Virus record (IMG/VR): IMGVR_UViG_3300007725_000011
Location: 1-34,395 of that record
DNA length: 34,395 bases
DNA from: a virus
Direction: 5' to 3' (one strand)
The first letter of the stretch is position 1. Every line of letters begins with the position of its first letter. The translations under genes were made by a program, and so were the position numbers. Positions 3,001-32,145 of this stretch are shown here, one piece after another. The notes under the pieces are model-generated. The model was not told the DNA's origin and made no database searches. It saw only the letters and a program-made list of their open reading frames with translations.

Positions 3001-6000
3001 ACATAGCCTTCTTGTGCATATCCATTATTAGGTATGCCAGGGGCAGTGGCAAAAGTAACACTGTTTGTGCCAACATTCACTGTATAATCAACATTCTGTA
3101 CCAATGGCGTGCCATCTACAGTCACTTCATTCACAACAATTTCAAAAGGTGTGCTACCGTAATCACCCAAAGCAGTATTCAATGCGAATACTGTTTTTTC
3201 ACCATCAGCATATGCTAATTCGTCACCAATGACAGGCGCGTCTGCCTCGGCTAAATCAACGGTAATATCATTTATAGTTAAGTATCTTTCTGTAAATGTA
3301 TCGGCGATAACAGGCGATATTGCTCCTGCCGGTGTGACAGGATATTCAGAATCTTGTGGTACCTGTATTTTCTTTTCCATAGAAATGACAGAGTTGTTAA
3401 TTATCAGTCTTGCTCCATCTTGACTTAACACCACAGGATTTGTTATACTGCCTAATATAGAAATAGGTTCTGTACCGGATACATTTGTACCGAATGTTAC
3501 GGTAGTATAAGATGAATCTGTATTATCTCTAAAAATGGCAGTTGAACCATATGGCATAGTAGGATATCTTACAGCACTCGCAATTTGAGCAATATCAGTT
3601 TGTGCGTTTAATCCAGTTGCTTGTACTATACATTCATACAGTTTTCCATCTTTGCGAACAAGGTCGCCTTTTTTGTAACTTGTGTATGTGTTCCATGTTT
3701 CTATATCTGTGCCAGACATTTGACTGAACAATCCTGGTATATCACTAACCTTCTTCGCAACAAAGTCAGCCTCATCTACTAATAAATCACCTGCTGTTCT
3801 TAATTGCAAATCACGCTCAACAAATGGTACTAATTCAAAATCAGGTTTTGAACCATTAACATATCTTGGACGATTAGGTGCCAAAATACTATTTGTTACA
3901 ATATCTACACCTGTGCCAGTCGGCTGGTCAACAAAGTTTAACAACTGTTGTTTGTCTTTTATTTCTGTTCGTCTAATCTCAAACTCAGTGGCATCAAAGT
4001 TTCTAACATCACCGAACATGTTCTCACGGAACATCCATATTTCACGAGACTTGACATTTTTATCACCTACCTCGTAGGATGCCAATGTATCAGCAAATGT
4101 CAATGAGTTAGTTGTACCTTTATCACGGATAATACCTTTGTACATTTCGTTGGCTGTAATCTGAGATATTCCCAAATCTTCAATCCATTCTTGTGTTATA
4201 TTGCCATTAGTCAAGCGCTCTGCTTTTTCAATAGACGCATTAAATTTATTAGTATTAACATCGTAATAGTCTCTAATGTTATCAACACTTGTGTCCCAGT
4301 TTTGAACAATCTTATCATCAAAGATTAGATATCCTGGCGCTTTGCGCTTACCGTACCAATCTTTTGTTCTTTGACCTTTCATTATCAATCGTGGTTGTCT
4401 TCTCTGAAGTACATCATCATAGATAGTACTGTTAAAGTCAGTCACATTGTTGAACACAACCATGTGTTCAAAATCAGTTACCGCGAATGTTACACTGCCT
4501 AAATCACCACCATAACTGACAACAGTTTGTGTTTCATCACGAGTTATCAGTAATTCTTCCAACGGTATAGTTCTGCCGTTTGTATCAAGGACACCGTTTG
4601 TTTGTCTGGATAGTGAGTTTAGTTCCAATATAGTACCATGTCCAGGTTGGAACATTATTTCCGAGCCAATTGGCAATGTCAATTGCGAATCTACTGCTGA
4701 ACTCATTGCCCAACGAGCAAAGTCATACGCATAGTCATCTATTCCACGAAGTAAATCATATCCAGCATCTTTAACAAATTGAAGATTGCCACGAATAAAG
4801 TTATAAACATCCTGAATACGCTTGAACTTTGTACCGTATTCTGCTATACTTGCTGGTTTAACAAACTTTTTATATTTCTTAACAGTAGCACCGCTGTCGC
4901 CTATTGTCACAACTTCAACATTACTGGTGTATGATAAATCTGCTTCATAAAAATAAAATTGTTGTTTGTTAGGACTAAATCCAAATACACTATAACCAGA
5001 ATCCGTCTTAACAATTCTAAAAGATGATGCTGTTATCAAATCAGTAGGTTTGCCTTGATACATAATCAAGTCATAATCAAAGCTTGCTAATGCGATAGAA
5101 CCTTGACGACTACTTTCCGTTTTAAATTCTAATAGATTTTTCGCCGAAAATCCACCAATCTTTTGCGACAATCTTGTTTCTACATTTTTAACTTGCTCAC
5201 TGAAGCTTTGCGTAGATTCAATTTTTGTTATATAATTATATATGATTTGGTCTAATCCACGAGAAACATATTCAACAGTTTTAGTTTCAACTCTGACATT
5301 TAATCCAATGTTCCCTTCAGTTTCGCTATAGAAATCTACATCTGGTAATTGATTGTATTTTGTTCCACGGTTAGTCAAAGCAACGCCTGATACAATTCCT
5401 GTTTCTGGTAGAAGAGCAAATTCAGTTGTGGCATTATCTCCGTCAGTGTTATTGAATAACAACACTTGCGCATCATCAACTGTTACTACCTCAGAGTTAG
5501 GTATCACTCTGTCATTCTTCATAGAAATTCTACTAACAACCGTTGTCAAATCTCCGGCTCTCGCTGAATCAGTTAATTGATTCAATCCAAGCTCATCAGT
5601 GACAATTCCAGGATATGTTGTATAATCTGCTGAGCGAACTGTGCCTGGCACAAAAAACTCTGCCCATGCTTGTGCAGGAGATAGAGTAGTCAGTGTGCTA
5701 ATAAACGCCGCTTGTCCTAGAGCACTGTTACGCCAAATCATTTGTCCTTCTGACCAATCTTCAAATGTGTGTGCTTGTGCAAAATTCACATCAAACACTC
5801 TATTTGCTGGATTAGCGACTAATACATTAACTGGCCCAACTAACTCACCGTTAGTATCAACTGGACATTGTAGTATCCAGTCCCAGTAGTAACGAGCGTA
5901 ACGCAAATCTGTCTTGCCGGTCGTATCTGTTCTGCCATGTTTTAACGCATCAAGAAGAGCATTTCGTTTCGTAGGTTCAGTCCAACTATACAAGTCATCC

Positions 6001-9000
6001 CACCAGGTTGGCTTCTTGGCATGTCCTAACATATGCCACGGCGTTAGATGTGGTGTGTCAGTGTCAAACAATGTACGATAAGCCGCGCGCCAGTGTCCTG
6101 GCAAATTGCCCAAGTGTCCATCTACATTAATATGTCTATAGTTCCATGTCCAACCTTCCGTGTCATCTGAATCTGGAATAGAAACAGGAAGTTTATAGCC
6201 TGTGTCATTTGTCCATCGTACAAAGTGACGGTACATCAAATCGTTTTCAATGTCGTAATGTGTGTACCATTTAGAACGATGCTGTGAACCTCTTAACGAT
6301 GCAGGTATAACATATTCACCATCTACAAGTCCAGCGTATATTCTTTTTTCAATGTCATACAACACCGCAGCAATAGGGTCAAACGAAGGGCTTCGTGTGT
6401 CATTTAATATAACTTCAATATCACCATCAGTGTTTACTGGATATGTGTCTCCGTCGTGACAGTAAAGCACACCATTATGTACTTGTGGTTCATACACTGG
6501 ACCTAGCATAGATTTTGTCATACTAGGCGGAACATAACATGATTCATCCATCGGAATGTAGTGAATAGATATCGTAGAATCATTATTGCCGAACGAAGAC
6601 ACTATAGATTGATTCAATACAAGCTGATTTGCTACAACAGTGTAATCAGTATTCTTGATTAAAAGTTTTTCAATCAAATTGCCAGCAACATAACTTGTTA
6701 AATACACGTACAAATGGTCTTGAATGTTTTCGTCTTTATTGACTGTTTCACGCAGAGTAATATTTGTTTGTCCAATACTCAAAATAAATTCTTGAGGGTC
6801 AGTCGTATTCAAAAATAACATGTTGCTATTTTTATACGTGCTTGTGCCTCTACGTGTCAAAACATATTGATTAATTACATCATTAGTCAAATCTTTCACG
6901 GAGCTATATGATTTTGTGCTCCATAATCGTCTTGCTTGATTCTTAACACGTTCTTTAAATGCGTACCAATCTTTGCCTTGTTCCATCAAAGCATTAGTTA
7001 TATTGAAATCTGGCGTTGTTATTGTCAAACTATGCGGCAATATGTTGTAGTCATGAATTAATATCGTGCCGCCGTATTGTGGAAGCTGCGGCAATCTATG
7101 TGAATTATTTGTGCCTATAATTTGTCCATCTATCTCAGGAGATTGACGAATAATATCTGCCCAGTGGTCCAATGTTTCACTGACAGTTAATGTATCAACA
7201 GTTTTGTTATTAGAGTTATATTCAAAAATTTCAGGTATAGTTTCCGAAGTCTCTGTTGTATTATTTGTATCAACGTATTGTAAGTCTATGATATCTCCTT
7301 CAGAAATCAATTCAACAGGAATAGTTATTTTGTCTGATTGAATAACATACTCTCTAGGTCGGAGTACATTTCCATTAATTTTAACTTCATGTTTCTGAAT
7401 GCTGGCATCACGGTCACTGTATATTTTCATTGTTTTGCCGATAACGCCTATAGAAGGGTCGGCATGTACCAGTGCCACGTTTACTGTGTTGTATCTACTC
7501 GGAGTTACATATGAAAACGAATCAGCAGTAAAACCATTTGCATATAGCGGTGTTTCACCATCAACATAAAAAACTACAGCAGCGGAGTCATACAAGTTAT
7601 GAAATTCATATTCAGTGTCTGGTTCCAATTTAAGAAAAGGAGTTGGATCTTTTATCTCGTTATATGTACCATTTGAATATAATTCTGTTATTGTCCATAC
7701 ATCTTCTGCTTTTTTAGTTATAATAAATTCTTGAGATGTTTTCCATGTTTCCGAGCCAACACCGTAAAAAATAGCAGGCTCTTCCGCGTTAATAACTTCA
7801 ATTTGTTGTTTTTTATACGCAGTCAGAGGACGAGCCATAGAAACATAGTTTGTTCTGTTATCGCCGTCAATTTCAAAGAAATATAAACCTTGTATTTCTT
7901 TCCTGTCTATGTTTGAATTTAATACATCTCTTACTTTAGAAGTGTATCGTTCCACATGTAGATAGTTTTTAAATACTATGTCTGCGCTTGCGCCATTATC
8001 TCGGCGTGAGAGTGCGAAGCCTAACTCGGTATCAACAAAACCTGTTCCTTCTTCGTATCCAAATATTTTACTACCAGCAAAATCATTCACAGGATATTCA
8101 TCAAGCCATTTGCCAGTAGCATCTTTTAATCTAAACAAAGGTGCTTGGTTCATACGAACTTTTTCTTGTGGAATTTTTACAATGTTAGCATTAAATTCTA
8201 TAATAGGTCGTATTGCTTTTCTTTCTTTACGTATGTATTCATCAAAATCTATGCCAATTATTCCACACCATTCTTTGACAGCATCAATGTGTATCCAGTT
8301 ATTATTACGGCTCCATGCGGTATTATCTTCATCCGCTCGGTCTATAACAATGTAATCTTTGTCGTATGATTCCAATACAATGCTGCCCATATCCCACGCA
8401 GCTTCGCCAAAAGAAATTCCATCAATAGCATTCAAATCAGGCAATTGTGGATTATAATCAGCATTGTCCCATAAACCAGTAACAGCAACTGGACTACCCG
8501 GTGTTTCAAAATCATATACAAACTCACCGAGAGCATCCATTATTTTAATTAGCTTGATTTTTTTACCTACACCTGCTACCATGTAAGTACAATCGTCATA
8601 ATTAGATAGTCTTATACGCTGATTGTTTTGTAAATAAAATGAAACATCTGTGTCTTCCCAGAAATATTCTGCGCCTGATTCTACACGAGCTATATCTACT
8701 GTTGTTAACCCAGAGATAAACACAGGCATATCAGGCACCCACACATATGAGCTAGGATTAACAAACTTGTCATATGTTATTGGCGGTGCAAATGTATATG
8801 CCTGTGTAGCGTATGCCGCTCCGTGTGAATAACTGTCAGTGTTTGTTTTTATGGTATTAGCAATATCATCATATGTAATAACATTTTCTATCTGATTATC
8901 ACTGTATGAAACAATTGCAGGAGACAAATGTACATTGGTTCTGCGCTCGGCATGTGCTACTTCTGGTAGATATACATCATCAATATTTCTGTACTTACCG

Positions 9001-9209
9001 TCACGCTTGCCAATAAATGCGTCAATATCTTCCAAATCACCTTTACTCAACATTTGGTCAAGTGTGCTATCTAGCCATTTACGGTTGATAGGAGTATCAA
9101 ATGTTTTTGGCAAGTACGAAGATGTTTTTATGTAATTTGTTTTCTTAGCGCCTGCGCGTATTTTCTCCATCTCTTCGGTGATTTTGTTTGGTTTATATTT
9201 GTCTGACAT
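1..9209 (-). CDS. Giant virion structural protein, probable gp7-like baseplate wedge initiator (partial, C-terminus beyond window)
   Basis: An open frame starts at an ATG at 9209 and runs without a stop to the left edge, giving at least 3069 codons. It begins MSDKYKPNKITEEMEKIRAG. It lies 12 bases behind the gp6 gene, with AGG 9 bases before the ATG. In T4 the gene after gp6 is gp7, a wedge initiator of about 1030 aa, so position suggests a greatly enlarged gp7-like wedge or peripheral baseplate protein; this is inference. The visible sequence is rich in beta-type Asp/Asn/Thr/Tyr stretches. Two similar modules of the flagellar-hook-associated kind (pattern ITRINDQ...GRLLLST...DDIGI) lie near residues 2160-2280. 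The last visible part is Trp-rich (NAWDMSAWDEYSWD) and is followed by a hydrophobic aromatic segment (YFNQLWFAMINYV). Numerous small plus-strand ORFs in this interval are shadows. It could instead be a tail-fibre or whisker protein. Coding status is certain; the name is not. Confidence 0.85.
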   Translation of the reverse strand, partial: MSDKYKPNKITEEMEKIRAGAKKTNYIKTSSYLPKTFDTPINRKWLDSTLDQMLSKGDLEDIDAFIGKRDGKYRNIDDVYLPEVAHAERRTNVHLSPAIVSYSDNQIENVITYDDIANTIKTNTDSYSHGAAYATQAYTFAPPITYDKFVNPSSYVWVPDMPVFISGLTTVDIARVESGAEYFWEDTDVSFYLQNNQRIRLSNYDDCTYMVAGVGKKIKLIKIMDALGEFVYDFETPGSPVAVTGLWDNADYNPQLPDLNAIDGISFGEAAWDMGSIVLESYDKDYIVIDRADEDNTAWSRNNNWIHIDAVKEWCGIIGIDFDEYIRKERKAIRPIIEFNANIVKIPQEKVRMNQAPLFRLKDATGKWLDEYPVNDFAGSKIFGYEEGTGFVDTELGFALSRRDNGASADIVFKNYLHVERYTSKVRDVLNSNIDRKEIQGLYFFEIDGDNRTNYVSMARPLTAYKKQQIEVINAEEPAIFYGVGSETWKTSQEFIITKKAEDVWTITELYSNGTYNEIKDPTPFLKLEPDTEYEFHNLYDSAAVVFYVDGETPLYANGFTADSFSYVTPSRYNTVNVALVHADPSIGVIGKTMKIYSDRDASIQKHEVKINGNVLRPREYVIQSDKITIPVELISEGDIIDLQYVDTNNTTETSETIPEIFEYNSNNKTVDTLTVSETLDHWADIIRQSPEIDGQIIGTNNSHRLPQLPQYGGTILIHDYNILPHSLTITTPDFNITNALMEQGKDWYAFKERVKNQARRLWSTKSYSSVKDLTNDVINQYVLTRRGTSTYKNSNMLFLNTTDPQEFILSIGQTNITLRETVNKDENIQDHLYVYLTSYVAGNLIEKLLIKNTDYTVVANQLVLNQSIVSSFGNNDSTISIHYIPMDESCYVPPSMTKSMLGPVYEPQVHNGVLYCHDGDTYPVNTDGDIEVILNDTRSPSFDPIAAVLYDIEKRIYAGLVDGEYVIPASLRGSQHRSKWYTHYDIENDLMYRHFVRWTNDTGYKLPVSIPDSDDTEGWTWNYRHINVDGHLGNLPGHWRAAYRTLFDTDTPHLTPWHMLGHAKKPTWWDDLYSWTEPTKRNALLDALKHGRTDTTGKTDLRYARYYWDWILQCPVDTNGELVGPVNVLVANPANRVFDVNFAQAHTFEDWSEGQMIWRNSALGQAAFISTLTTLSPAQAWAEFFVPGTVRSADYTTYPGIVTDELGLNQLTDSARAGDLTTVVSRISMKNDRVIPNSEVVTVDDAQVLLFNNTDGDNATTEFALLPETGIVSGVALTNRGTKYNQLPDVDFYSETEGNIGLNVRVETKTVEYVSRGLDQIIYNYITKIESTQSFSEQVKNVETRLSQKIGGFSAKNLLEFKTESSRQGSIALASFDYDLIMYQGKPTDLITASSFRIVKTDSGYSVFGFSPNKQQFYFYEADLSYTSNVEVVTIGDSGATVKKYKKFVKPASIAEYGTKFKRIQDVYNFIRGNLQFVKDAGYDLLRGIDDYAYDFARWAMSSAVDSQLTLPIGSEIMFQPGHGTILELNSLSRQTNGVLDTNGRTIPLEELLITRDETQTVVSYGGDLGSVTFAVTDFEHMVVFNNVTDFNSTIYDDVLQRRQPRLIMKGQRTKDWYGKRKAPGYLIFDDKIVQNWDTSVDNIRDYYDVNTNKFNASIEKAERLTNGNITQEWIEDLGISQITANEMYKGIIRDKGTTNSLTFADTLASYEVGDKNVKSREIWMFRENMFGDVRNFDATEFEIRRTEIKDKQQLLNFVDQPTGTGVDIVTNSILAPNRPRYVNGSKPDFELVPFVERDLQLRTAGDLLVDEADFVAKKVSDIPGLFSQMSGTDIETWNTYTSYKKGDLVRKDGKLYECIVQATGLNAQTDIAQIASAVRYPTMPYGSTAIFRDNTDSSYTTVTFGTNVSGTEPISILGSITNPVVLSQDGARLIINNSVISMEKKIQVPQDSEYPVTPAGAISPVIADTFTERYLTINDITVDLAEADAPVIGDELAYADGEKTVFALNTALGDYGSTPFEIVVNEVTVDGTPLVQNVDYTVNVGTNSVTFATAPGIPNNGYAQEGYVQEFYADEGYSDVVFKFKPINTKNYTEIKDRIENTVPNVFVFLDPDNRFKIRGTVPGSSQELVIGAGSANGALGLTAGTYTGGTTLVYVHTEIELPEIITRINDQVGQTVIASESAGRLLLSTNESQVTIGGTQSILDDIGIIAQTFNAVETNIDSFSPVGDIVSKMNAAFSDSGIEITAAEIDGYLAITSSTEYLEIGSDEFLNNMGISATDVNDNGDNITIVSSLSDVISNDFVISEWKDVSHEDPLLSSIWVTDDSEFEYSTLNSTTQVRYNSWNFYKFMNLNFYSDSPDSCSICAGNTTSDGNDAQITINTAHNLRAGDYVMIVNSTTIPSVDGIHKVTRVDALDPRAFYIDMYIDECGVSPSIFVMRSSRFREHDYVVDTSLYNYQLDDLVFVTPVGQDSIQTGTYVYGMETPDTGNTVTRLNSQPVRITETRSTNDDIMNVSLYNGKSARSSFELEVFDPLRGKIPGVADREIDIKSPIDLAVYTNSTDISFEGTPRSAWGEEQIGTVWWDTSAAIYFDYTQGSGEYNANMWGKQFYFSSIDIYEWVVSDVPPDEWEKAAEKNKEVIGKVASGEAYKVYDPALKEDVYYYTESTEWNHITAQYDNVYYFWVKNKQTIEDPKRHLTANQIASIIDNPTANGISWCAAVSDNQLILANVKAYVNNDNTVVQINRMLEGHAHTSWREIAEDVDTIPQFWYEGLRDNLSGYEIEDRPEETISTSETEWQPGQQYVIGNKVFYNRTEYICIKDVDVTDAWEIQTLKRCWIKRDPFVRRNRLPDINLHEFNKYGNDRELYQSWFVDVNEARREFVSVLNRLIKTINVVDEVSPGNIVKFERFGFLWKWIDYVSPARVPEQSHTLVVSRMAALDDVDTTRHTLVKVPEFNPIDGRDISELHQWTGTEWNLVEKKNSTMEFNDLLWDKSSKNAWDMSAWDEYSWDIDYSYDIHTLIELLRNDVFVGTYLPYFNQLWFAMINYVLSEQDFVDWAYKTTFIQLD

Positions 9210-12662: not shown

Positions 12663-13220
12663 TTAATGAGCAAATTCCATGTTAGCGGAGTAATGTATCA
12701 ATTCAGACGGCCAATCCAAGAATTCACTCCAACCAGTGTCTGGAATGTTTATCTTAAATATTTTTGCTCTGTTGTTTATTTGATACCAACTTGGATTATA
12801 TGGTTGTGTGATAGGTTTTATTAGTTTACTGCCTTTTTGTGTGTTACATGGGAAACAGGCAGTGGTACAGTTTTCCCAACTTGTGTCGCCGCCCAGACTT
12901 CTGGGATGTACGTGGTCAATTGTTAATTCACTAGATTCAAATCTTTCACCACAGTACTGACACCTGTAGTCATCCCGGACATACATGTTCCTCCGTGAAA
13001 ATTTGGCATTTCTAGGTCGCCGATGATAACGCCGTAACATCACCACACTGGGCATGTTCATTTTGAAATTTACACTGTTTATATAGATATCATCATAATG
13101 CTTTATGATATCCACTTTTTCTTGATAATACGCTTTTATAGCATTCTGCCAACTAATCGTGCTTAATGGCAGTAAACTTAAGGGCTGAGCATCGGCATTC
13201 AATAATAGTACACTTGACAT
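12663..13220 (-). CDS. Free-standing HNH endonuclease
   Basis: A protein of 185 aa. Two Cys pairs (C87/C90 in RCQYCGE and C122/C125 in ACFPCNTQKG) bracket the catalytic motif TIDHVHPRSLGG (Asp102, His103, His105) and the later Asn117 (WENC), the usual beta-beta-alpha metal finger of bacterial-type HNH nucleases. The N-terminus (VLLLNADAQPLSLLPLSTISWQNAIKAYYQEKVDII) matches the segment that precedes this HNH type in bacterial and phage homologues. It interrupts the baseplate genes between the lysozyme-fold gene and gp25. In T4-like phages such genes are usually homing endonucleases or packaging/repair accessories; which applies cannot be told here. A late-promoter-like GATAAATA lies 23 bases before its ATG, with a GAGAAG ribosome site, so it may be expressed separately. 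Confidence 0.88.
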   Translation of the reverse strand: MSSVLLLNADAQPLSLLPLSTISWQNAIKAYYQEKVDIIKHYDDIYINSVNFKMNMPSVVMLRRYHRRPRNAKFSRRNMYVRDDYRCQYCGERFESSELTIDHVHPRSLGGDTSWENCTTACFPCNTQKGSKLIKPITQPYNPSWYQINNRAKIFKINIPDTGWSEFLDWPSELIHYSANMEFAH

Positions 13221-22950: not shown

Positions 22951-22954
22951 AAAA

Positions 22955-22984
22955 CTAATATCTACTAATATCTACTAATATCTA
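22955..22984 (+). repeat. Three perfect tandem copies of a 10-base unit
   Basis: CTAATATCTA is repeated three times without interruption at 22955, 22965 and 22975, starting four bases after the stop of the nuclease gene. The unit length is one helical turn, so the copies would lie on the same face of the DNA. A related sequence is present in the 3' part of the nuclease gene at 22812-22830. Confidence 0.9.
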
Positions 22985-23700
22985 GAATTTTTAAGACAGA
23001 AGCTCCGCAAAATTACTGTTGTGAAACAGTATGGCTCGGCTATCTAGCACCTTGTTATGCGAGACTTGAACACCTCGGCAAGGTTAAAGACTACTCACAG
23101 AACCCTTACAAACTAGACTCAAGGTTGACGGGCCAGTTATATATTCCGTTGCGAAATCCATTCTGATGTGAGATGGTAAGCTAACAGGTTTTCTAGTTAT
23201 CTGCTTCAATAGACTACCCTATCTTCGTGATAGGATGCCTTAAAAGACGACCCTACTGGTTAGCGCTTTTCTATTGTCGTAATGGTAGTAGTTACAGTAA
23301 TGTAATGAAAAAAGACCCGGCTCTGATGAACTATTGCAACCGGGAGTCCGTTCAATGTGGTACGATTCGCTATGAACACATGGACTGCGCTGGTAAAAGC
23401 AGCAAGTAATTGAGGTACAGCCCAACCGCCTCCCCTTCCGTAACTGTTAGGTTTGCTAATCGTATGTATTTTCTCCTTTGGGAGAGGTAGAGTTCTATTC
23501 TACCTTAGATACATTTTGGCCGCCATAGGCTAAGTGTATCTAAGGTAGAATAGAGACACACACATGTAGGAGTGACAAAAATATGTTACGGAATATATAA
23601 GAATCAGTGGAAAGGAATAAAAAGAGTGTTTAAGCGTAAGCGTATTAACAACGAAGCAATGCCATTGCGAGTTGTTTTGTCCGATAGGACAATTTACTGC
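22985..23700 (+). ncRNA. Putative large structured non-coding RNA
   Basis: From the end of the nuclease gene to 23765 there is no credible gene, which is exceptional in this tightly packed genome. The stretch instead holds many local inverted repeats. Examples on the plus strand: 23014-23031, a 7-bp stem with a GTGA (GNRA) tetraloop; 23049-23084, ACCTTG/CAAGGT enclosing CGAG/CTCG; 23218-23234, CCTATC/GATAGG; 23316-23344, CCCGG/CCGGG; 23389-23403, GCTG/CAGC; 23472-23485, TCTCC/GGAGA; 23494-23554, a 20-bp stem; 23647-23676, AACAAC/GTTGTT with a nested GCAA/TTGC stem; 23677-23692, TTGTCC/GGACAA with a GATA loop. The GNRA loop and nested stems favour the plus strand as the RNA. The ends are guesses. 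Length (570-720 nt) and phage setting recall the large ornate phage RNAs GOLLD and ROOL, but I did not recognise a consensus. Confidence 0.55.
23494..23554. repeat. 20-bp perfect inverted repeat with a structured loop
   Basis: The arms 23494-23513 and 23535-23554 are perfectly complementary over 20 bases (core CTATTCTACCTTAGATACA and its complement). The 21-base loop contains a second pairing, TTGGCC with GGCTAA, around GCCATA. There is no T-run after the second arm, so it does not look like an intrinsic terminator. It may be the longest stem of the putative RNA, an RNase III site, or a cruciform-forming site. Confidence 0.85.
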
Positions 23701-23765
23701 GACTAAATAGTGATACATTAATCTTTAAGCATCCGTGTGTCTAAAATATCCCTAGGAACTAATGA

Positions 23766-24212
23766 ATGAATTTTGAAGAATTTACTACTGCTTTTCTTAA
23801 GTGGTCTGAAGAAAAAATTGAAGCGAAAAAAGCAGATGGCTTTGCTGTATGTCCTTATGCGAGAAAAGCACGACTTGATAATAAACTCCAGTTCTTAGAT
23901 GCTCGTTCTGGTGACATGAGAGATATATTTCTCCAGTTTCAAAAAGATACGTATGAAGTAGGAATTGCGTGGATAGATGGGCGTAATTTGGATTTAGTAC
24001 ATGATGTGATTGAAGAGTTACATGAGGAGCATCCCGACTTGTTATACTTCATTAGTACGCCAGAATCAGGATTATTTGCTCAAAACTTCACTGGCTGTGT
24101 TTTTATACAGTTGCGTGATGATATTGTAGAAAAAAGAGGCCAACTACATAAGACAAGATATTATGATAGCTGGCCCGAGAAGTATTATAAAATGATTACA
24201 GGTAACGTTTAA
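23766..24212 (+). CDS. Conserved-looking protein of unknown function (148 aa)
   Basis: Begins MNFEEFTTAFLKWSEEKIEAKKADGFAVCPYARKARLDNKLQF. The 'CPYARKA' element near residue 30 resembles the CPFA/CPYA motif of small uncharacterised proteins such as the DUF1415 type, but I am not sure of membership. The rest is an alpha/beta protein without membrane segments (EVGIAWIDGRNLDLVHDVIEELHEEHPDLLYFIST). The ATG at 23766 is used because the overlapping ATG at 23762 runs into a stop after four codons; AGGA lies about 9 bases upstream. It is isolated on the plus strand after the putative RNA, and its stop codon overlaps the stop of the gp51-like frame on the other strand within the tetranucleotide TTAA. 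Confidence 0.8.
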   Translation: MNFEEFTTAFLKWSEEKIEAKKADGFAVCPYARKARLDNKLQFLDARSGDMRDIFLQFQKDTYEVGIAWIDGRNLDLVHDVIEELHEEHPDLLYFISTPESGLFAQNFTGCVFIQLRDDIVEKRGQLHKTRYYDSWPEKYYKMITGNV

Positions 24213-24445
24213 CGTCTTCTACTTTTCTTAGCGGCTTCGGCACGTTTTTCGTTTAAAAGATTGATACGTTCTACATATAATGCTACACTATTAACAGGCA
24301 TTCGCATTATATCCTCATAACTCAATGCTCCGTTACTATGTAGAATAATATCTAAATAACCTGCTTCAGCGTTTTTGAGTTCCTTTGTATATCTTTCAAC
24401 TATATCGTCTATTTCTTCCGGCCGACATGTAGCTATCAGCCTGCG
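24209..24445 (-). CDS. gp51: gp51-like tail-assembly segment in the -1 frame of gp26 (translated by frameshift)
   Basis: Reading on from the gp26 slippery site in the -1 frame gives 78 residues: RRLIATCRPEEIDDIVERYT, then an Asp/Glu/Lys helix, then LSYEDIMRMPVNSVALYVERINLLNEKRAEAAKKSRRR and TAA. The segment 'DIMRMPV...YVERIN' has the look of gp51 and other tail-assembly chaperone C-termini, and in T4 gene 51 lies next to gene 26. In this frame a TGA lies upstream in the gp26 region, and no ATG, GTG or TTG occurs before the TTG at Leu41 of the segment, so it has no normal start. I infer that it is made as a gp26-gp51 fusion of about 354 aa by a -1 frameshift. Alternatives are an unusual start (CTG or ATA next to the gp26 stop) or a sequencing error in the six-T run. 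Confidence 0.7.
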   Translation of the reverse strand, partial: RRLIATCRPEEIDDIVERYTKELKNAEAGYLDIILHSNGALSYEDIMRMPVNSVALYVERINLLNEKRAEAAKKSRRR

Positions 24446-25272
24446 AAAAAATTTGACATATCTAGCTCAACTTCTGTTGTCCATTCATGTCCGCATTCTT
24501 GGCAACGAGCCTTCATATTATTATTAATGCCACTTTGTCCCAATTCTTCTACTCGGTCACGAATCTTTTCATAATCTTCACGAGATATAGATTTTAACCA
24601 TTCGTGAATCATATCTTGGTCAGTAATTACTTCGCTGTCAGGAATAGTTACACCTGCTACACAGTTAGCAACCAAATCAACTGTCAATTCAGCAATCTCA
24701 ACAAAAGTCTTGCCAAAAATTTCATTTCTCTCGGCATCTTCCATATTAGATTGTGACATTAACGATTGAATCAATCTTTGTTGTTTTACTTGTTGAAGTT
24801 GAAGTAATGTACGGTCATGAAGATTAAATGGCTTGATATCTACTATGAACCCTTGGCTTAATTCCACACTTGTTTCTGCTGTGACAGATTTTGCAGACGC
24901 TAGTATTGTTGGACTATCAACCGTGAGCATATTCATACTCTGGCATGATGGACATTTAACATCTATGTCTAACTCATTTCCGTAACTCGCAGTACGAATA
25001 GCAAGCAAAATAACAATGAGGTCGCTCATCGGAACTTGGTCAGCGTCCTGTATGTCAGGACAACAACTTTTTATTAGTGCTCGTGTCGCTTCGCCATTGT
25101 ATAGAGCATCTGGAGTTTTTGTTATCAACTCATCCCTAGCAGTCATTGGATAGATGGCTAATTCACCGTCTATACTCAGTGTTGGCTTTGGATTATAAAA
25201 TCTCCCTCCTGATGGCAAGGAAATATAAAGGGCCGGCTTCCTATAAGCCGCTATTAAGGGATTAGTACTCAT
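24436..25272 (-). CDS. gp26: Baseplate hub assembly protein gp26 (tape-measure chaperone candidate)
   Basis: A protein of 278 aa starting MSTNPLIAAYRKPALYISLPSGGRFYNP, the conserved opening of gp26 in T4-like phages of the marine type; T4 gp26 is 208 aa. Further family features are LYNGEATRALIKSCCPDI (about 58-74) and LLAIRTASYGNEL. Two CxxC pairs, C107/C110 (KCPSCQS) and C257/C260 (RCQECGHEW), could together bind one zinc ion. In T4, gp26 and gp51 act in hub assembly around the tape-measure protein gp29. The gene has GGAG 7 bases before its ATG and an exact late promoter 44 bases upstream. It is divergent from a tape-measure-like gene. Near its end, T TTT TTC precedes GCA GGC TGA TAG, with two stops in a row. 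Confidence 0.9.
   Translation of the reverse strand: MSTNPLIAAYRKPALYISLPSGGRFYNPKPTLSIDGELAIYPMTARDELITKTPDALYNGEATRALIKSCCPDIQDADQVPMSDLIVILLAIRTASYGNELDIDVKCPSCQSMNMLTVDSPTILASAKSVTAETSVELSQGFIVDIKPFNLHDRTLLQLQQVKQQRLIQSLMSQSNMEDAERNEIFGKTFVEIAELTVDLVANCVAGVTIPDSEVITDQDMIHEWLKSISREDYEKIRDRVEELGQSGINNNMKARCQECGHEWTTEVELDMSNFFAG
24445..24451 (-). promoter_or_regulatory. Candidate -1 ribosomal frameshift site (T TTT TTC)
   Basis: In the gp26 frame the codons read AAT TTT TTC GCA GGC TGA TAG. The heptamer T TTT TTC fits the X XXY YYZ rule, and a slip by one base joins gp26 to the gp51-like frame. Only a weak 4-bp GGCT/GGCC hairpin follows a few bases downstream, and I see no Shine-Dalgarno-like stimulator in the 20 bases upstream. 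Confidence 0.6.
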
Positions 25273-25344: not shown

Positions 25345-28300
25345 TTGGACCAACAATCAGTAGATAATATATTTCAACAATATCCATGGGCTTCGGACTC
25401 AACCCTCAAAGCTATCATCATGGCGATTACCAATGATGAGCAAGTTGTACTGCGGGAATTGCGTCGGATAAAAAGAGATTTTGAAGAATTATCCGATTCA
25501 ACTGATAAGATGGATTCTTTACAACGGTCATTAAGTAGTTATGTATCCAAAGTTGGCGATACTGCTAAAAGTACAATGGGAACACTCACTCGTGATATAG
25601 ACCCTATCGCTGGTACTGCTGAGTTAATGGATACCGTTGCTAAAGCTTCAGAGGTTTTGGGTGATGCGTCAGAGGATATTCTAAAATCTGGCAGCAAACT
25701 TATAAAAAATCCATTTGCTAAAGGGTTACTAAAACTCACCGGCGGCGCAGCGGATTTATTAGGAAGCACTGCTGGTAAATTAGCTGCGGCAGGCGCTTTA
25801 GTTGGTAAAGCAATTTCATCATATGATGCTGAGATGCGAGCTTCTATTGATATGGGCGCTCTGAGCGATAATCTGGATGACTTCAATTTATTAAAAGACA
25901 ACGCCGCTGGATTAGGTATGAGTCTCCAGGAGTTATATGGTGCTATGGGCGATAGTATGTATGCATTCACTAACATGTCTGGCGGCAACACATACGATGC
26001 TCAACTTCAATTTACTAAATTCGTACATGCACTTAAAGATGGGCCAGAAGCAATAAATCGGCTGGGTTATTCTGTCGGAGAATTTTCCACGAGATTGGCA
26101 GAAGAAGCCAAGATGTTATATGATATCAGTGACTTGGATTCACTGAATCAACAAACACAGAAAAGAATTGCTGAGGCATTTACAACGTCTACTGAAATAG
26201 CGACCATGCTTGCCAATGTCACTGGTGACAAACGAAGCGAGTTATTGGCAGAACGTGAGCAAGCCAAAACAGATGTTGATATTGTCACCGCAATGAGAAT
26301 TAACCAAGAAGAGTTTCAAAAAATGTATGGCGAAGCTGGCCCGGCAATGGTTAATGAAGCATACGGAAACTTGGCAATGGCTGCTAAAATGCTTGGACCA
26401 GGATTACAAGAATTGATAATGGATGCAACGAAACGAGGCATTCAGAATACACGTTTTGATACCGATATAAAGAACGACATAGGAGAAGAATTAGCTACGC
26501 AATTATCAGCATTCCCTATGGAAACGCAAGAAATGATTCTAACGGCAATGCAGGCAGTAATTACTGACGCTGATTCGGCGGCAACTGATTCAATGTATAT
26601 GCTCCGACGATTCGGTGATGCGGCAAAAACACTCGCCAATCAGGATTTTGCTGATGCTCGTGGTAATGAATATTTTACAACATTCAATGAAAACTTAGCG
26701 CAGGCAAAGAACACTGTCAAGTTATTAAGCAAAAAATCATATGATGAATTAAAGGATGACCTTTTGAATGTCGGCACCCTAGCCGACACAGCGGATGACG
26801 CAATTGAGGTTATAGATGGAGCCAGAATATCATTGAGAAATATGTATTCTGCGATTATTCCTAAACATAGAAATCTTCAGGCATTCCTTGAGATATTTGA
26901 ATCATCACTAGGATTAAGTGTTTCTGCTATTACTACTATGTTGCCAAGTGGTACATTAGACCCAAAAGAAGCGGCTGAAGAGCAATTAGCAAATATGCTA
27001 AAAAAACAAGAAGCCGACCGCCAGGCTCTTGATGATATGAAACGATATCAAGAGATATTAGATAGACCTACATCATCAAATGCGAAAAAACGAGTAGCAC
27101 AAAAACGTATAGACCGAATTTTGTCAGAAAGACAGGTATCGGCTCAACAAGATTTAGAATTTAGTGCCAATCGCAAAATATCGTTGGGCGATGATGGCAA
27201 AACTGTAGTAGTGAAAAATCCAGACGGTTCAAAGTCTATAATGAATGTTAAAAAAGGCGAGACTGTTAATACTACCGCAGATGGAAAAGTATTCGTTACC
27301 ATGGATAGTAAAAAGTTAGTGCCTACTACCATGACCAATGCCGAAGTTCCTCTAACAAATTTGTTGTCGTTAATTGGCAAAGGCGAAGCGAGTGGCAGTT
27401 ATGATGCGAGTAATAATCCTACTGGTTCGGATTTAGATACAAGTAGGGGCGGTAAAAAGCTAACTGAGATGACTATTGCCGAGGTGATGTACTGGCAAAA
27501 TGAAGCGAGTCGCAGCGAAAGGTTAGGTGCGGTAGGCAAGTATCAAATGATACCTTCAACATTCAAGGAAGCAGTTGAACGAGGAGGATACGATAAAGAT
27601 GCTATCTTTAATGCTGAAATGCAGGATAAGATGGCAACTGATTGGTTCTTATTGGGTGGTGTTAAACGTCCTATGCTGTCTGCTTTCCTAAAAGGTACGC
27701 CATACAACGGTCGTGAAGTTTCCGTGGAGGAAGCAATGACTGCTGGAGCTATGGAATGGGCAGCATTGCCTGTGCCATATGATATGGCAGGAAGAAATCG
27801 TAGAGTTCGTGCGGGAGAATCATACTATGAAGGTGATGGTCAAAACTCTGCTAATATTAGTATTGATGCGTATAGAAAGGCATTGATTGACGCTAAGAAT
27901 CAATTAGCAAATAAATCGGAGCAGCCAAAACCTCAGAAAAAATCTGTGCCCGATATCAAAGAGCAAGTAGAAGATGTATTGACAAAAGACAAGTTGTCCG
28001 CGCCACCTGTTGTTGATGTAAAAGAGCAAGTAGAAGATGTATTGACTGAGAATAAGCCTTCGGATGTGCCTGTTGTTGATGTAAAAGGACAGGTCATAGA
28101 GGCATTAGATGAACACGAGACTAAAACTTCACAGGATATTCGCACGACCGACCAAAAAGAAGATAAAACAGAGACTCCTATTCCTTCACAGGCATCTGTG
28201 CCTGACATTAAAGAGCAAGTGGAAAGTGAATTAGAGAGACAAATAGTTGAGCCATCTTCTGAGCCAACGCCTCATATACCGTACAAAGACTTGACACTGG

Positions 28301-29118
28301 AAGCAAGGATACAGGCGGTAGAGGAAAGTATTCGTAGAAACAAGGCATACGAAAACCCTAACAAGAGAGTGATAAAAGCATTTGAAACCGAGTTAGCATC
28401 ACTGCGCCGAATGGAGGCGAAAAATGCCGAAGCGAGTATAAAACGCAGTGAAGAACAGTTAGTAGAGCAATCTGAAGAGACTATGCCTGATTTGTCAAGC
28501 ACTGTAGAGGTTGATATTCCTTCAACCTACAGTGAAGACAATCTTGCTGTAAATTTCGCTAAAGGTATAAATGAAGACTATGATTCTCATCAAGAAGAAA
28601 AATCGCAACCTAAAGTAAAAACAACACCTCAGCCGACGGCAGAGCAACGCTGGGAATACGAAGGTGAGTATTTGACTGAGGAAGAAATTAACAATAGATT
28701 TGGTTTAGGTCAAGATGAGATGGCCAATGAGAATATTGACCGGTTGGCATATGAAGCATCGGATGTATTAAATGATGCACTAGGGGAATTAATCAAAGCT
28801 AATACACCGCCGACTCCGAGTGAGTTTGGTGATACAACATATGGAAATCCGGCGGCAATGCCTCCTGCGTTTTCTTCTCCTAGTGGAAAGGCAATTCCTT
28901 CGGTTTATGACACTTCGCAGTATCCACAGTCTGCCACCGGGCAAGAAATTGAAGAAGAAAAGCGAAATTCTGAGAAACCTGAAACAGACTCAGTTGCAGA
29001 CATAACGGAATATTTGAAAAAATCAAATGCGTTGGATAATGAAATAAATCGCAGAATGCGAAATATAGGCACGACACTTCACCGTGCCAATGCGGCAGCA
29101 TATCAGAGGACAGTGTAA
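25345..29118 (+). CDS. Tape-measure-like tail protein with a muramidase-type domain
   Basis: A protein of 1257 aa. The start is TTG; its use is supported because WASDSTL at residues 15-21 matches WASESTL at 19-25 of the following protein. Residues about 40-560 are mainly helical, with a Gly/Ala/Leu-rich hydrophobic stretch near 125-165 (LLKLTGGAADLLGSTAGKLAAAGALVGKAI). Residues about 670-840 form a lysozyme-like domain resembling phage lambda R (GH104): LIGKGEASGSYDA (candidate catalytic Glu681) and GAVGKYQMIPSTFKEA (Tyr733), then AMEWAALP. The C-terminal third is charged and repetitive: four copies of a [IV]KxQVE/I-type unit (residues about 868-965) and long Glu/Lys helices. Likely role: tail tape measure or hub-lumen protein that opens peptidoglycan at injection. 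T4 gp29 has 590 aa and no such domain. The gene ends directly at the ATG of its apparent paralogue. Confidence 0.75.
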   Translation: MDQQSVDNIFQQYPWASDSTLKAIIMAITNDEQVVLRELRRIKRDFEELSDSTDKMDSLQRSLSSYVSKVGDTAKSTMGTLTRDIDPIAGTAELMDTVAKASEVLGDASEDILKSGSKLIKNPFAKGLLKLTGGAADLLGSTAGKLAAAGALVGKAISSYDAEMRASIDMGALSDNLDDFNLLKDNAAGLGMSLQELYGAMGDSMYAFTNMSGGNTYDAQLQFTKFVHALKDGPEAINRLGYSVGEFSTRLAEEAKMLYDISDLDSLNQQTQKRIAEAFTTSTEIATMLANVTGDKRSELLAEREQAKTDVDIVTAMRINQEEFQKMYGEAGPAMVNEAYGNLAMAAKMLGPGLQELIMDATKRGIQNTRFDTDIKNDIGEELATQLSAFPMETQEMILTAMQAVITDADSAATDSMYMLRRFGDAAKTLANQDFADARGNEYFTTFNENLAQAKNTVKLLSKKSYDELKDDLLNVGTLADTADDAIEVIDGARISLRNMYSAIIPKHRNLQAFLEIFESSLGLSVSAITTMLPSGTLDPKEAAEEQLANMLKKQEADRQALDDMKRYQEILDRPTSSNAKKRVAQKRIDRILSERQVSAQQDLEFSANRKISLGDDGKTVVVKNPDGSKSIMNVKKGETVNTTADGKVFVTMDSKKLVPTTMTNAEVPLTNLLSLIGKGEASGSYDASNNPTGSDLDTSRGGKKLTEMTIAEVMYWQNEASRSERLGAVGKYQMIPSTFKEAVERGGYDKDAIFNAEMQDKMATDWFLLGGVKRPMLSAFLKGTPYNGREVSVEEAMTAGAMEWAALPVPYDMAGRNRRVRAGESYYEGDGQNSANISIDAYRKALIDAKNQLANKSEQPKPQKKSVPDIKEQVEDVLTKDKLSAPPVVDVKEQVEDVLTENKPSDVPVVDVKGQVIEALDEHETKTSQDIRTTDQKEDKTETPIPSQASVPDIKEQVESELERQIVEPSSEPTPHIPYKDLTLEARIQAVEESIRRNKAYENPNKRVIKAFETELASLRRMEAKNAEASIKRSEEQLVEQSEETMPDLSSTVEVDIPSTYSEDNLAVNFAKGINEDYDSHQEEKSQPKVKTTPQPTAEQRWEYEGEYLTEEEINNRFGLGQDEMANENIDRLAYEASDVLNDALGELIKANTPPTPSEFGDTTYGNPAAMPPAFSSPSGKAIPSVYDTSQYPQSATGQEIEEEKRNSEKPETDSVADITEYLKKSNALDNEINRRMRNIGTTLHRANAAAYQRTV
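27946..28236 (+). repeat. Four imperfect coding repeats (KEQVEDVLT units)
   Basis: Within the 1257-aa gene the unit '[DI][IV]KEQVEDVLT' occurs at about 27952, 28015, 28078 (degenerate, VKGQVIEALD) and 28204 (IKEQVESELE). Copies 1 and 2 share 26 identical bases (27958-27983 and 28021-28046), 63 bases apart, which points to recent duplication. Confidence 0.8.
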
Positions 29119-32100
29119 ATGGCAACAAATAACATACGATTACCAGACGGTTCAACTATTGCGATACCAGCGTGGGCTTCGGAAAGTACTTTACAACAGT
29201 TGTTGATAGAGGCAAGAAAAAATAGTACTAATCACGAAATGGTAGAAAATGCCATTAGGTCACTTGATTTAGATTCTGAAGAGTTTCAAGATGCGTTAGC
29301 TAATTTAGATGGCGCTATCCGAGACGCGGCTAAAAAAGAGAAAGAAAAAAGTAAAGCAATCACTGATAAGTTAAGGTCTTCTGGTTCTAAAATAGCTGGC
29401 GCTTTAAACGATACTTCTCGTCCCTTAACAGGTATGACAAATGCTATGGGTGCTCTTGCTGAGGGTGCCGGAGGCGTCACATCCGAATTCCTAAAAGGCT
29501 CTAAATGGGCTAGTAAATTCGGCGATAAAGCATCTATGCTAGGCGATGTAGGTGTTGCGGCAGCTGGTACATTTATGACCTGGGTAGGTTGGAATGCCGC
29601 TAAAATGGAGCAATTTGCTGAAGCCCAGCAATCTATGATTGATAGTGGTGTCATATTCTTTGATACTTCAGGCGCATTCAACGATTTATATACTCAAGTT
29701 CAGCAAAATGGTATAACATATGCTCAATTAACTAATGTAGTTACACAATATGGATTTGGTATCGCTGGATTATCAAAAGGCGTGTCAGATGGTACTAAAG
29801 TATTTGCGGACTTAATAAGTGGTGACGAAGGCATACTCAAACTGTCAGATAAATTTGGCGACTATGGGTTATCACATGATGAATTGATGAATGTTTATGC
29901 CCAATACATTGAAACGCAAGTGCGTCAAGGAAGAATCAATGGTGACATTGAATCTAATAAAAATGCTCTAAACGAAAGCTTTAACAAATTGATGTTGGAA
30001 ACTACAGCGTATGCCAGTTTGACTGGTATGAATCGTAGTGCTGTTCTGAAGAGTATGTTAGACGGCATGAATGATGTAATGCGTGGTTCGGCATTAACAG
30101 ATTTAGAAAAATCCGGACACGGAGATGTTGCCACACGAGTAAATGAAACATTAAACGCTTTAGGTTTATTTGCTGAAATGTCAGGCGAGTCAGGAGCTAA
30201 GCCGTTGTTTGACCAGCTTCAAAAGGCGATGATTGAAGGCATAGCGGTTCATGCGGATAATCCTAGTCTATTCAACATAGAGCATCAACTATCTAACAAT
30301 CCAGCACTACAACAACTGGTTCGTCAATCGGGTTTATCTGACTTGTTGAATAGGGTAGGCAAAGGCGAAGAAGTAGCATTTGAAGAAATGACTGAATTTT
30401 TCAATGCAGGTAGATTTGCTGAGCAAGCGGACCAATTTGCTAAGTTATCTGGCAACACGAGTGAGTTGGCAGAGTTGGCATGGACATTATCTGTTGCTGA
30501 AAACGAAATAAGAAACAGAACCAAAGATGTAGGTGAAAAAATCAATGAAGCTGGTGGATTTTATGAGTATGTCAAGAGAACCGGCGAGTTGTCTGAAATA
30601 GCTGGACAATCTGTTGTTTCTATGAACAACATGACTACTACTTTCATACAAGCACAAGAAGCAATAACACTGGATTTACAGTCGTCTTCCGAGACAGTGA
30701 AGGAATTCACAGATATAATGCAGAAAGCGACCGATTGGGTCAAAAAAGCTGTGAATGGAACTGGTGATGACGTAACCGCACCGCCTACAAATGAATTGGA
30801 TATAAATTCACTTGACCCTTCTATGGATAGTTGGTGGAATGATGTGTTCTTGCCAGCCTCCGAAGGGTTGAATCCTATGCGGCCGCGAGTGGATACTAAC
30901 GCTAGTTATATTACTGAGCCTTATTATAGAAATTTCAACACTCAGGAAATAGAAGATGACGCATTTGCGGAAGAATTGAATGCTCAAATAGAGAAATTGA
31001 AATCTGAAGGCAAAACGACACAAGAAGCTAGGGCGGCTGTTGTACAACAATATGGCATAGAAAAACTCAAAGAAGCTGGCATGATTGGTCTGAGAGATTT
31101 CAGTAAGTATGCTAAAATAGTAGATGGTAAAGAGGTAGAAGTATCCAAGCAAGAATATGACTTGGCTGTTAAGCCTGAGGTTTTATTGCCGACTGTACAA
31201 CATGAATTAAAACCAGGCGAAAAAATAGAAGTTACTGATGAAAGAAACAATACACTGACTGAACCTGTTCAAGTAGAATACAACGATGTAACAAATTCCG
31301 ACACTGATGTACAACAACCTACTATTGTTGATATACGAGGATTTGATGATAATAATATTGAACCACCTAGAGTAGTTGTCACGAATGAACTTGAAAATCC
31401 AGAGATTGTTCCAAAAACTACTGTTGAGATACGAGAAAACACCGACTCCAGAATTGAACCAAAAGAATCTGTTCCAGTAGTACCAGAATCAGTAGATAGA
31501 AATGTTCAACCGACTATTGTTGAGATACCAGACCCTGTTCATACGAAATATTTAGAAACAACTGTTAATCTTGAGATGGAACAACCAGACGATGTAAAGG
31601 TTGAACATGAAATACTTCCTGCACCATCTCCAGCTACAATAAATGTGAATCATAATGTTGAACATGATGTTGATTCTGGGCCTGTTAATGTAGAGCACGA
31701 AATAGCTGAACCAGCCATTCAGACACGTCCTTCTGTTAAAACTGAAGAGGTATCATCTATCAACGATAGAGTAGCAAACGAAAATCTTCAGGTGAAAACA
31801 CCAAGGGAAACAGAGAAGCCAGAACCTATACAAACTACATCCAGAACGAAAGTTGAGCTTGTTACAAATGAAGAAAAAATAGCTGATGCGTTTATTACGG
31901 CTGCTGGTATCGTACAATCAATTCGTTCTGATAGTGATAATCCGGTATCTGGTCAAGTGTTGAATCAGTTCAAAGTGCGTCTGGATGATATGTACGATGA
32001 ATATGATGTAGGAGATACAAATAACGATAATAACATAGACATTCGTGATATAAAAGAAGCTTTACTTGGCAAAGAAACTATGTTAAAATTACTCAGTGAG

Positions 32101-32145
32101 ATGGAAAGTATTGTCGGCGAATTCAAAAAACTTCAAGCCGAATGA
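29119..32145 (+). CDS. Second tape-measure-like structural protein, paralogue of the upstream gene
   Basis: A protein of 1008 aa; its ATG follows the preceding stop with no gap, with AGAGGA upstream. Opening MATNNIRLPDGSTIAIPAWASESTLQQLLIEA shares the WAS[DE]STL element with the preceding protein and then a similar layout: charged helix, Gly/Ala-rich hydrophobic segment (DVGVAAAGTFMTWVGWNAA, about 143-162), and long helices (to about 550). No lysozyme-like motif is visible. Residues about 720-830 contain three degenerate repeats of about 32 residues (QPTIVDIR..., KTTVEIRE..., QPTIVEIP...). Near the C-terminus, residues 966-977 (DTNNDNNIDIRD) followed by IKEALLG form an EF-hand/dockerin-like calcium loop. 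Likely a hub or tape-measure component; function inferred from layout and position before the portal. Confidence 0.6.
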   Translation: MATNNIRLPDGSTIAIPAWASESTLQQLLIEARKNSTNHEMVENAIRSLDLDSEEFQDALANLDGAIRDAAKKEKEKSKAITDKLRSSGSKIAGALNDTSRPLTGMTNAMGALAEGAGGVTSEFLKGSKWASKFGDKASMLGDVGVAAAGTFMTWVGWNAAKMEQFAEAQQSMIDSGVIFFDTSGAFNDLYTQVQQNGITYAQLTNVVTQYGFGIAGLSKGVSDGTKVFADLISGDEGILKLSDKFGDYGLSHDELMNVYAQYIETQVRQGRINGDIESNKNALNESFNKLMLETTAYASLTGMNRSAVLKSMLDGMNDVMRGSALTDLEKSGHGDVATRVNETLNALGLFAEMSGESGAKPLFDQLQKAMIEGIAVHADNPSLFNIEHQLSNNPALQQLVRQSGLSDLLNRVGKGEEVAFEEMTEFFNAGRFAEQADQFAKLSGNTSELAELAWTLSVAENEIRNRTKDVGEKINEAGGFYEYVKRTGELSEIAGQSVVSMNNMTTTFIQAQEAITLDLQSSSETVKEFTDIMQKATDWVKKAVNGTGDDVTAPPTNELDINSLDPSMDSWWNDVFLPASEGLNPMRPRVDTNASYITEPYYRNFNTQEIEDDAFAEELNAQIEKLKSEGKTTQEARAAVVQQYGIEKLKEAGMIGLRDFSKYAKIVDGKEVEVSKQEYDLAVKPEVLLPTVQHELKPGEKIEVTDERNNTLTEPVQVEYNDVTNSDTDVQQPTIVDIRGFDDNNIEPPRVVVTNELENPEIVPKTTVEIRENTDSRIEPKESVPVVPESVDRNVQPTIVEIPDPVHTKYLETTVNLEMEQPDDVKVEHEILPAPSPATINVNHNVEHDVDSGPVNVEHEIAEPAIQTRPSVKTEEVSSINDRVANENLQVKTPRETEKPEPIQTTSRTKVELVTNEEKIADAFITAAGIVQSIRSDSDNPVSGQVLNQFKVRLDDMYDEYDVGDTNNDNNIDIRDIKEALLGKETMLKLLSEMESIVGEFKKLQAE
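31316..31540 (+). repeat. Three degenerate coding repeats, about 32 residues each
   Basis: Units begin at about 31316 (CAACCTACTATTGTTGATAT), 31412 (AAAACTACTGTTGAGATACG) and 31505 (CAACCGACTATTGTTGAGAT), a period of roughly 93-97 bases. The protein pattern is [QK]-[PT]-T-[IV]-V-[DE]-I followed by a variable Pro/Glu-rich stretch. Confidence 0.65.

Follow-up and report, generated by a model that had tools for sequence, protein, structure and literature searches.

Vladimirov, Gautam and Davidson (Virology 2022, 566:9-15) reportedly identified the two forms of a tail assembly chaperone (TAC) with T4 genes 26 and 51, and they are said to have found frameshifting in several further T4-like groups. 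PMC3004832 gives T4 gp26 and gp51 as chaperones of hub assembly, gp51 being required yet not present in the particle. Two later papers, in the passages that mention the 2022 study, cite it as follows: PRFect (PMC10885494) for some T4-like phages that have a short gene and a longer fused gene with no frameshift, and PMC12846349 for polyT frameshift signals within the TAC-N genes of T4-like phages. A literature search for work joining jumbo phages, frameshifting and the baseplate hub returned none.

The locus described here comes from a marine, uncultured T4-like phage, and the window is the whole 34,395-nt stretch of IMG/VR record IMGVR_UViG_3300007725_000011. It is very probably the TAC locus of a T4-like phage, encoding a short form and a frameshifted long form (Table 1).

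Table 1. Coordinates of the chaperone locus and its neighbour in the window
Feature	Position	Strand	Basis or remark
gp26 homologue, short chaperone form, 278 aa	24436..25272	(-)	ORF and translation, PF12322, phrog_150, fold
Slippery heptamer T TTT TTC, in gp26 frame	24445..24451	(-)	kept in all relatives examined
-1 continuation, 78 codons + TAA, putative gp51-like C-terminal domain of the long form	24209..24445	(-)	
Frameshifted long chaperone form, 354 aa, predicted product	24209..25272	(-)	-1 reading; PF12322 copy number
Candidate stimulatory hairpin, 7 bp	24420..24441	(-)	begins 3 nt past heptamer, overlaps gp26 stop codon
1257-aa ORF, probable tape-measure/tail protein, presumed chaperone client	25345..29118	(+)	position and length only

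The gp26 gene and its -1 continuation

The gp26 ORF starts with ATG and ends at TGA (24438-24436) with TAG directly after, its 3' end reading AAT TTT TTC GCA GGC TGA TAG. The product matches the Pfam family PF12322, T4_baseplate (E 1.8e-22, 80.6 bits, cut-off 24.5), and PHROGs family phrog_150, 'baseplate hub' (E 2.4e-25), and is evidently a homologue of T4 gp26; the Pfam search returned no tail-chaperone family besides PF12322. Its AlphaFold model is confident (pLDDT 86.7) and resembles other gp26-type viral models, while sequence and fold searches of the PDB gave no real match and no fold match at E<=0.001. The protein also contains two CxxC motifs, at residues 107-110 and 257-260. Because C107, C257 and C260 are invariant among 17 relatives, these motifs suggest a zinc site.

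A -1 slip on T TTT TTC (24451-24445) adds 78 codons, closed by TAA at 24211-24209. The end of gp26, the heptamer, the length of the continuation and the 278- and ~354-aa products proposed in the earlier note all proved exact when the sequence was re-read. AATTTTTTCGCAGGC occurs once in the window (0.00 expected). The stop-free stretch of the -1 frame spans 24466 to 24209 (85 codons). Its earliest ATG, GTG or TTG is a TTG at 24325, 47 codons in, which bears out the claim that the frame has no usable start before the middle of the segment. AlphaFold predicts a helical hairpin for the extension (pLDDT 86.0).

The heptamer is conserved at the nucleotide level

An in-frame TTTTTTC or a run of 7-8 T, followed by a -1 continuation, was present in 40/40 IMG/VR loci encoding relatives, at 29-100% identity over the best segment; the T run lies 10-22 nt upstream of the gp26 stop and the continuation extends 66-78 codons counted from that stop. 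A profile scan yielded at least 599 relatives, of which the best 80 were kept. These represent 70 distinct loci, some common to the 40-locus set, and all 70 contain the heptamer (67 TTTTTTC, 3 TTTTTTT) and the continuation. So do nine named jumbo-phage records (121Q, Atu_ph07, Phosso, PA5oct, RaK2, Vibrio 2.275.O, SCTP-2, XacN1 and Stenotrophomonas CM1) and four cyanophages (S-PM2, P-SSM3, S-CAM22 and ACG-2014g). Over all sets TTTTTTC or TTTTTTT is found 10-40 nt upstream of the gp26 stop, with a continuation of 59-84 codons where the contig end does not interrupt it. The comparison of homologous gp26/gp51 loci that had been proposed as a check thus finds both elements kept in more than 100 distinct loci. 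A 595-kb uncultured phage (L061, LR756511.1) encodes a very distant homologue of gp26 with T TTT TTC 70 nt upstream of the stop; the -1 frame there remains open and ends in a gp51-like segment.

The codon preceding Phe-Phe specifies any of nine amino acids (N, S, D, H, T, R, Y, A or G), yet its third base is T in every case, and the heptamer has TTT as its first Phe codon without exception; elsewhere in these gp26 genes TTC accounts for 81/286 Phe codons (28%). The invariant T-ending codon and TTT, despite the varied amino acids, point to selection on the nucleotide heptamer. Together with its X XXY YYZ form and zero-frame phase, this conservation is what a programmed -1 frameshift calls for, and the heptamer and its continuation are evidently not products of chance.

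The same data bear on two other origins of the frame relation. Homopolymers are prone to error, so that the T run might be suspected of having been misread or misassembled, but the same relation recurs in more than 100 distinct loci, including those of isolated phages sequenced independently; this explanation, like that of a decayed in-frame fusion gene considered below, is refuted by the comparison and its probability is close to nil. Slippage could instead be transcriptional, since a polymerase may slip on runs of 6-8 T and some related loci have an 8-T run. The runs are mostly exactly six T followed by C, however, the classic ribosomal X XXY YYZ, always in zero-frame phase, and a transcriptional rather than ribosomal event is extremely improbable.

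The -1 frame is under purifying selection

Within the region that is coding in the -1 frame only, dN/dS was 0.01-0.29 for most moderately diverged pairs, on which weight was placed because distant pairs were saturated; two close pairs with few synonymous changes gave ~0.7. Between S-CAM22 and ACG-2014g, 3, 1 and 24 changes in this region fall at codon positions 1, 2 and 3, respectively. From the low dN/dS and the strong third-position bias we conclude that the -1 frame is, by all appearances, translated and under purifying selection, which also argues against decay of a former fusion gene.

Translation of the extension might nevertheless begin at a start of its own, the extension being a separate small gp51-like gene whose translation is coupled to, or re-initiates at, the stop of gp26. 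Small CDSs are indeed annotated apart in 121Q, Phosso, S-PM2, P-SSM3 and XacN1. In 16/90 loci an ATG stands no more than 12 codons from the shift point, sometimes overlapping as ATGA, and re-initiation at these loci could yield an additional small protein. In contrast, no ATG, GTG or TTG lies upstream of the shift point or within 12 codons past it in the window or in 38 further loci. There is conservation of the codons following the slip (FFR), the heptamer does not vary, and T4 gp51 itself is a gp26 domain fused with the extension. As a general account, a separate gene is very unlikely. In four loci (L034, L038, L043 and L044) an ATG in the -1 frame overlaps the gp26 stop as ATGA, and a separate extension protein made by coupled re-initiation is possible there besides the frameshift product.

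A candidate stimulatory hairpin was located in the window, with 96.8% of cells paired across nine sequences of the window's clade; none of its pairs shows two-sided changes among these nine. A downstream hairpin common to all clades was sought and not found, with z-scores taken from mononucleotide shuffles, a lenient null. The hairpin is suggestive as a frameshift stimulator for the window's clade alone, other clades differing.

The extension corresponds to the C-terminus of T4 gp51

The earlier note had linked the 78-aa segment to gp51 by its pattern of residues. Searches of Pfam, PHROGs and NCBIfam with this piece alone returned nothing useful; a phrog_28681 match (E 0.003 over 14 residues) was judged to be chance. 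Profile comparison by hhalign upholds the link. The extension scored 34.8 (window group) and 48.0 (cyanophages) against T4 gp51, exceeding all of 60 column-shuffled controls (maxima 18.8 and 21.6), and aligned with the C-terminal gp51 columns 222-255 and 206-248, respectively; it gave no hhalign match to T4 gp26. The full long form aligned over almost the whole of gp51, with scores of 58.0 and 116.9 against null maxima of 22.4 and 23.6.

The T4 gp26 and gp51 families also align with each other (probability 99.5%, E 3.1e-22), and by hmmscan gp26 residues 1-206 and gp51 residues 1-201 both match PF12322, beyond which ~48 residues of gp51 correspond to the extension. Because both proteins contain the domain and the extension matches the gp51 C-terminus, T4 gp26 is best read as the short form and T4 gp51 as a duplicate of that domain to which the extension is joined in frame.

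One frameshifted gene or two genes

The window record contains one PF12322 copy; so does every one of 12 related contigs, between 57 and 436 kb in length, and so do seven named heptamer-type phages, which makes 20 heptamer-type records; SCTP-2 was left out of the count because its known copy falls under the search threshold. T4 and the RB43-like phage Xman, both without the T-run heptamer, contain two. At eight Straboviridae-type loci genes 26 and 51 are separate and no slippery T run ends gene 26. Relatives that lack the heptamer and encode gp51 in a separate ORF, which the earlier note had held to speak against a frameshift, do therefore occur, in the Straboviridae only (T4, RB49- and RB43-like, Aeromonas and Acinetobacter phages). 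Their gp51 is not the bare extension, however, but a second gp26-domain copy plus extension, which supports the two-form scheme.

Since PF12322 is single where the heptamer is present and double where it is absent, and the eight Straboviridae-type loci lack the T run, heptamer and second gene appear to be complementary in the sample examined. An ancestral frameshift with duplication of the gene in Straboviridae is the simpler reading of this unrooted comparison. The wider proposition, that the frameshift is the ancestral and near-universal route to the long form among T4-like phages outside Straboviridae, jumbo phages included, with clade-specific hairpins, a Straboviridae duplication and strict complementarity of copy number and heptamer, is somewhat favoured as a whole.

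A model for the chaperone pair and its neighbour

The locus combines the features of a T4-like TAC, namely PF12322, a gp51-tail-like extension, the heptamer with a kept -1 frame, and a single domain copy. Most ribosomes would stop at the gp26 TGA to give the 278-aa short form (TAC-N), and a minority would slip -1 on T TTT TTC and read 78 codons more. The result would be the long form (TAC-NC) of 354 aa, with a predicted helical tail at its C-terminus as the counterpart of the T4 gp51 tail. As in the analogous lambda G/GT system, the two forms may coat the tape measure protein in tail or hub assembly, the long form acting on it through its extra domain. In Straboviridae such as T4 the same two products would come from the paralogous genes 26 (short) and 51 (long). 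We infer the occurrence and efficiency of slippage and the action on the tape measure; the presumed chaperone function draws on T4 genetics and on analogy.

The gene adjoining gp26, which had been called tape-measure-like, is present but is divergently transcribed, and its identity is argued from position and size; neither Pfam nor PHROGs gave a tape-measure family match for it. Most relatives whose flank is long enough have a long divergent ORF ahead of gp26, and the RaK2 counterpart is annotated as similar to tape measure protein. A domain within the ORF matches phrog_30077. It is followed by a second long, tail-like ORF (29119-32145, plus strand) with a similar N-terminus (PWASDSTL and PAWASESTL). 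In relative L012 the same ORFs are matched by both, suggesting that the two are paralogues.

Other parts of the window were also surveyed. One open frame, 3069 aa or more in length (3-9209, minus strand), runs off the left window end and adjoins the baseplate gene cluster. Within that cluster an ORF with an HNH-endonuclease-like motif (12663-13220, minus strand), possibly a homing endonuclease, lies between gp25-like and lysozyme-like genes. The ~800 nt between the RusA-like resolvase gene and the ORF at 23766 (22951-23765) contain no convincing ORF and no Rfam or tRNA match; a long inverted repeat formed by TCTATTCTACCTTAGATACA and its complement lies within them, at about 23494-23554.

Comparison with known systems

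The core of this reading, a two-form chaperone made by frameshifting in T4-like phages, was already proposed in 2022. The link between T4-like hub assembly and the G/GT scheme, offered as new in the earlier note, had likewise been reported, as far as the passages of PMC10885494 and PMC12846349 that cite Vladimirov et al. 2022 convey. The present analysis may contribute breadth, with over 100 distinct loci that include those of jumbo phages, together with measurements of selection, slippage left unmarked in annotations, and the complementarity of heptamer and second gene. None of the annotated jumbo-phage or cyanophage records examined marks the slippage; all of them have the region as gp26 plus an unrelated fragment, or unannotated, and it can now be given a product structure and a likely function.

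With the T4-like TAC (gp26 as TAC-N, gp51 as TAC-NC) the locus has the Pfam domain and the short/long pair in common; its own phage belongs to an uncultured marine group. T4 gp26 and gp51 become readable as the short and long members of one chaperone pair, which would make T4 hub-assembly genetics and lambda G/GT biochemistry directly comparable.

The cyanophages S-PM2, P-SSM3, S-CAM22 and ACG-2014g share an identical T TTT TTC, which in them lies 10 nt upstream of the stop codon of gp26; in S-PM2, S-CAM22 and ACG-2014g a large gene comes next. Their extension is 59-64 codons long, compared with 78 in the window, and their gp26 is shorter (236-238 aa). The annotated 'gp51' of cyanophages, that of S-PM2 for example, falls in the -1 continuation of gp26, as the window extension does. 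In other cyanophages annotators chose internal starts, producing 'gp51' entries of 31 to 61 aa, and the frameshift reading accounts for these short and erratic lengths.

The proposed parallel with lambda G/GT and P2 E/E' stands for the short/long scheme of lambda G/GT, the likeness being one of scheme rather than of demonstrated homology. In one respect the arrangement differs from lambda gpG/gpGT and P2 E/E': the chaperone gene of the window is directed away from the presumed tape measure gene.
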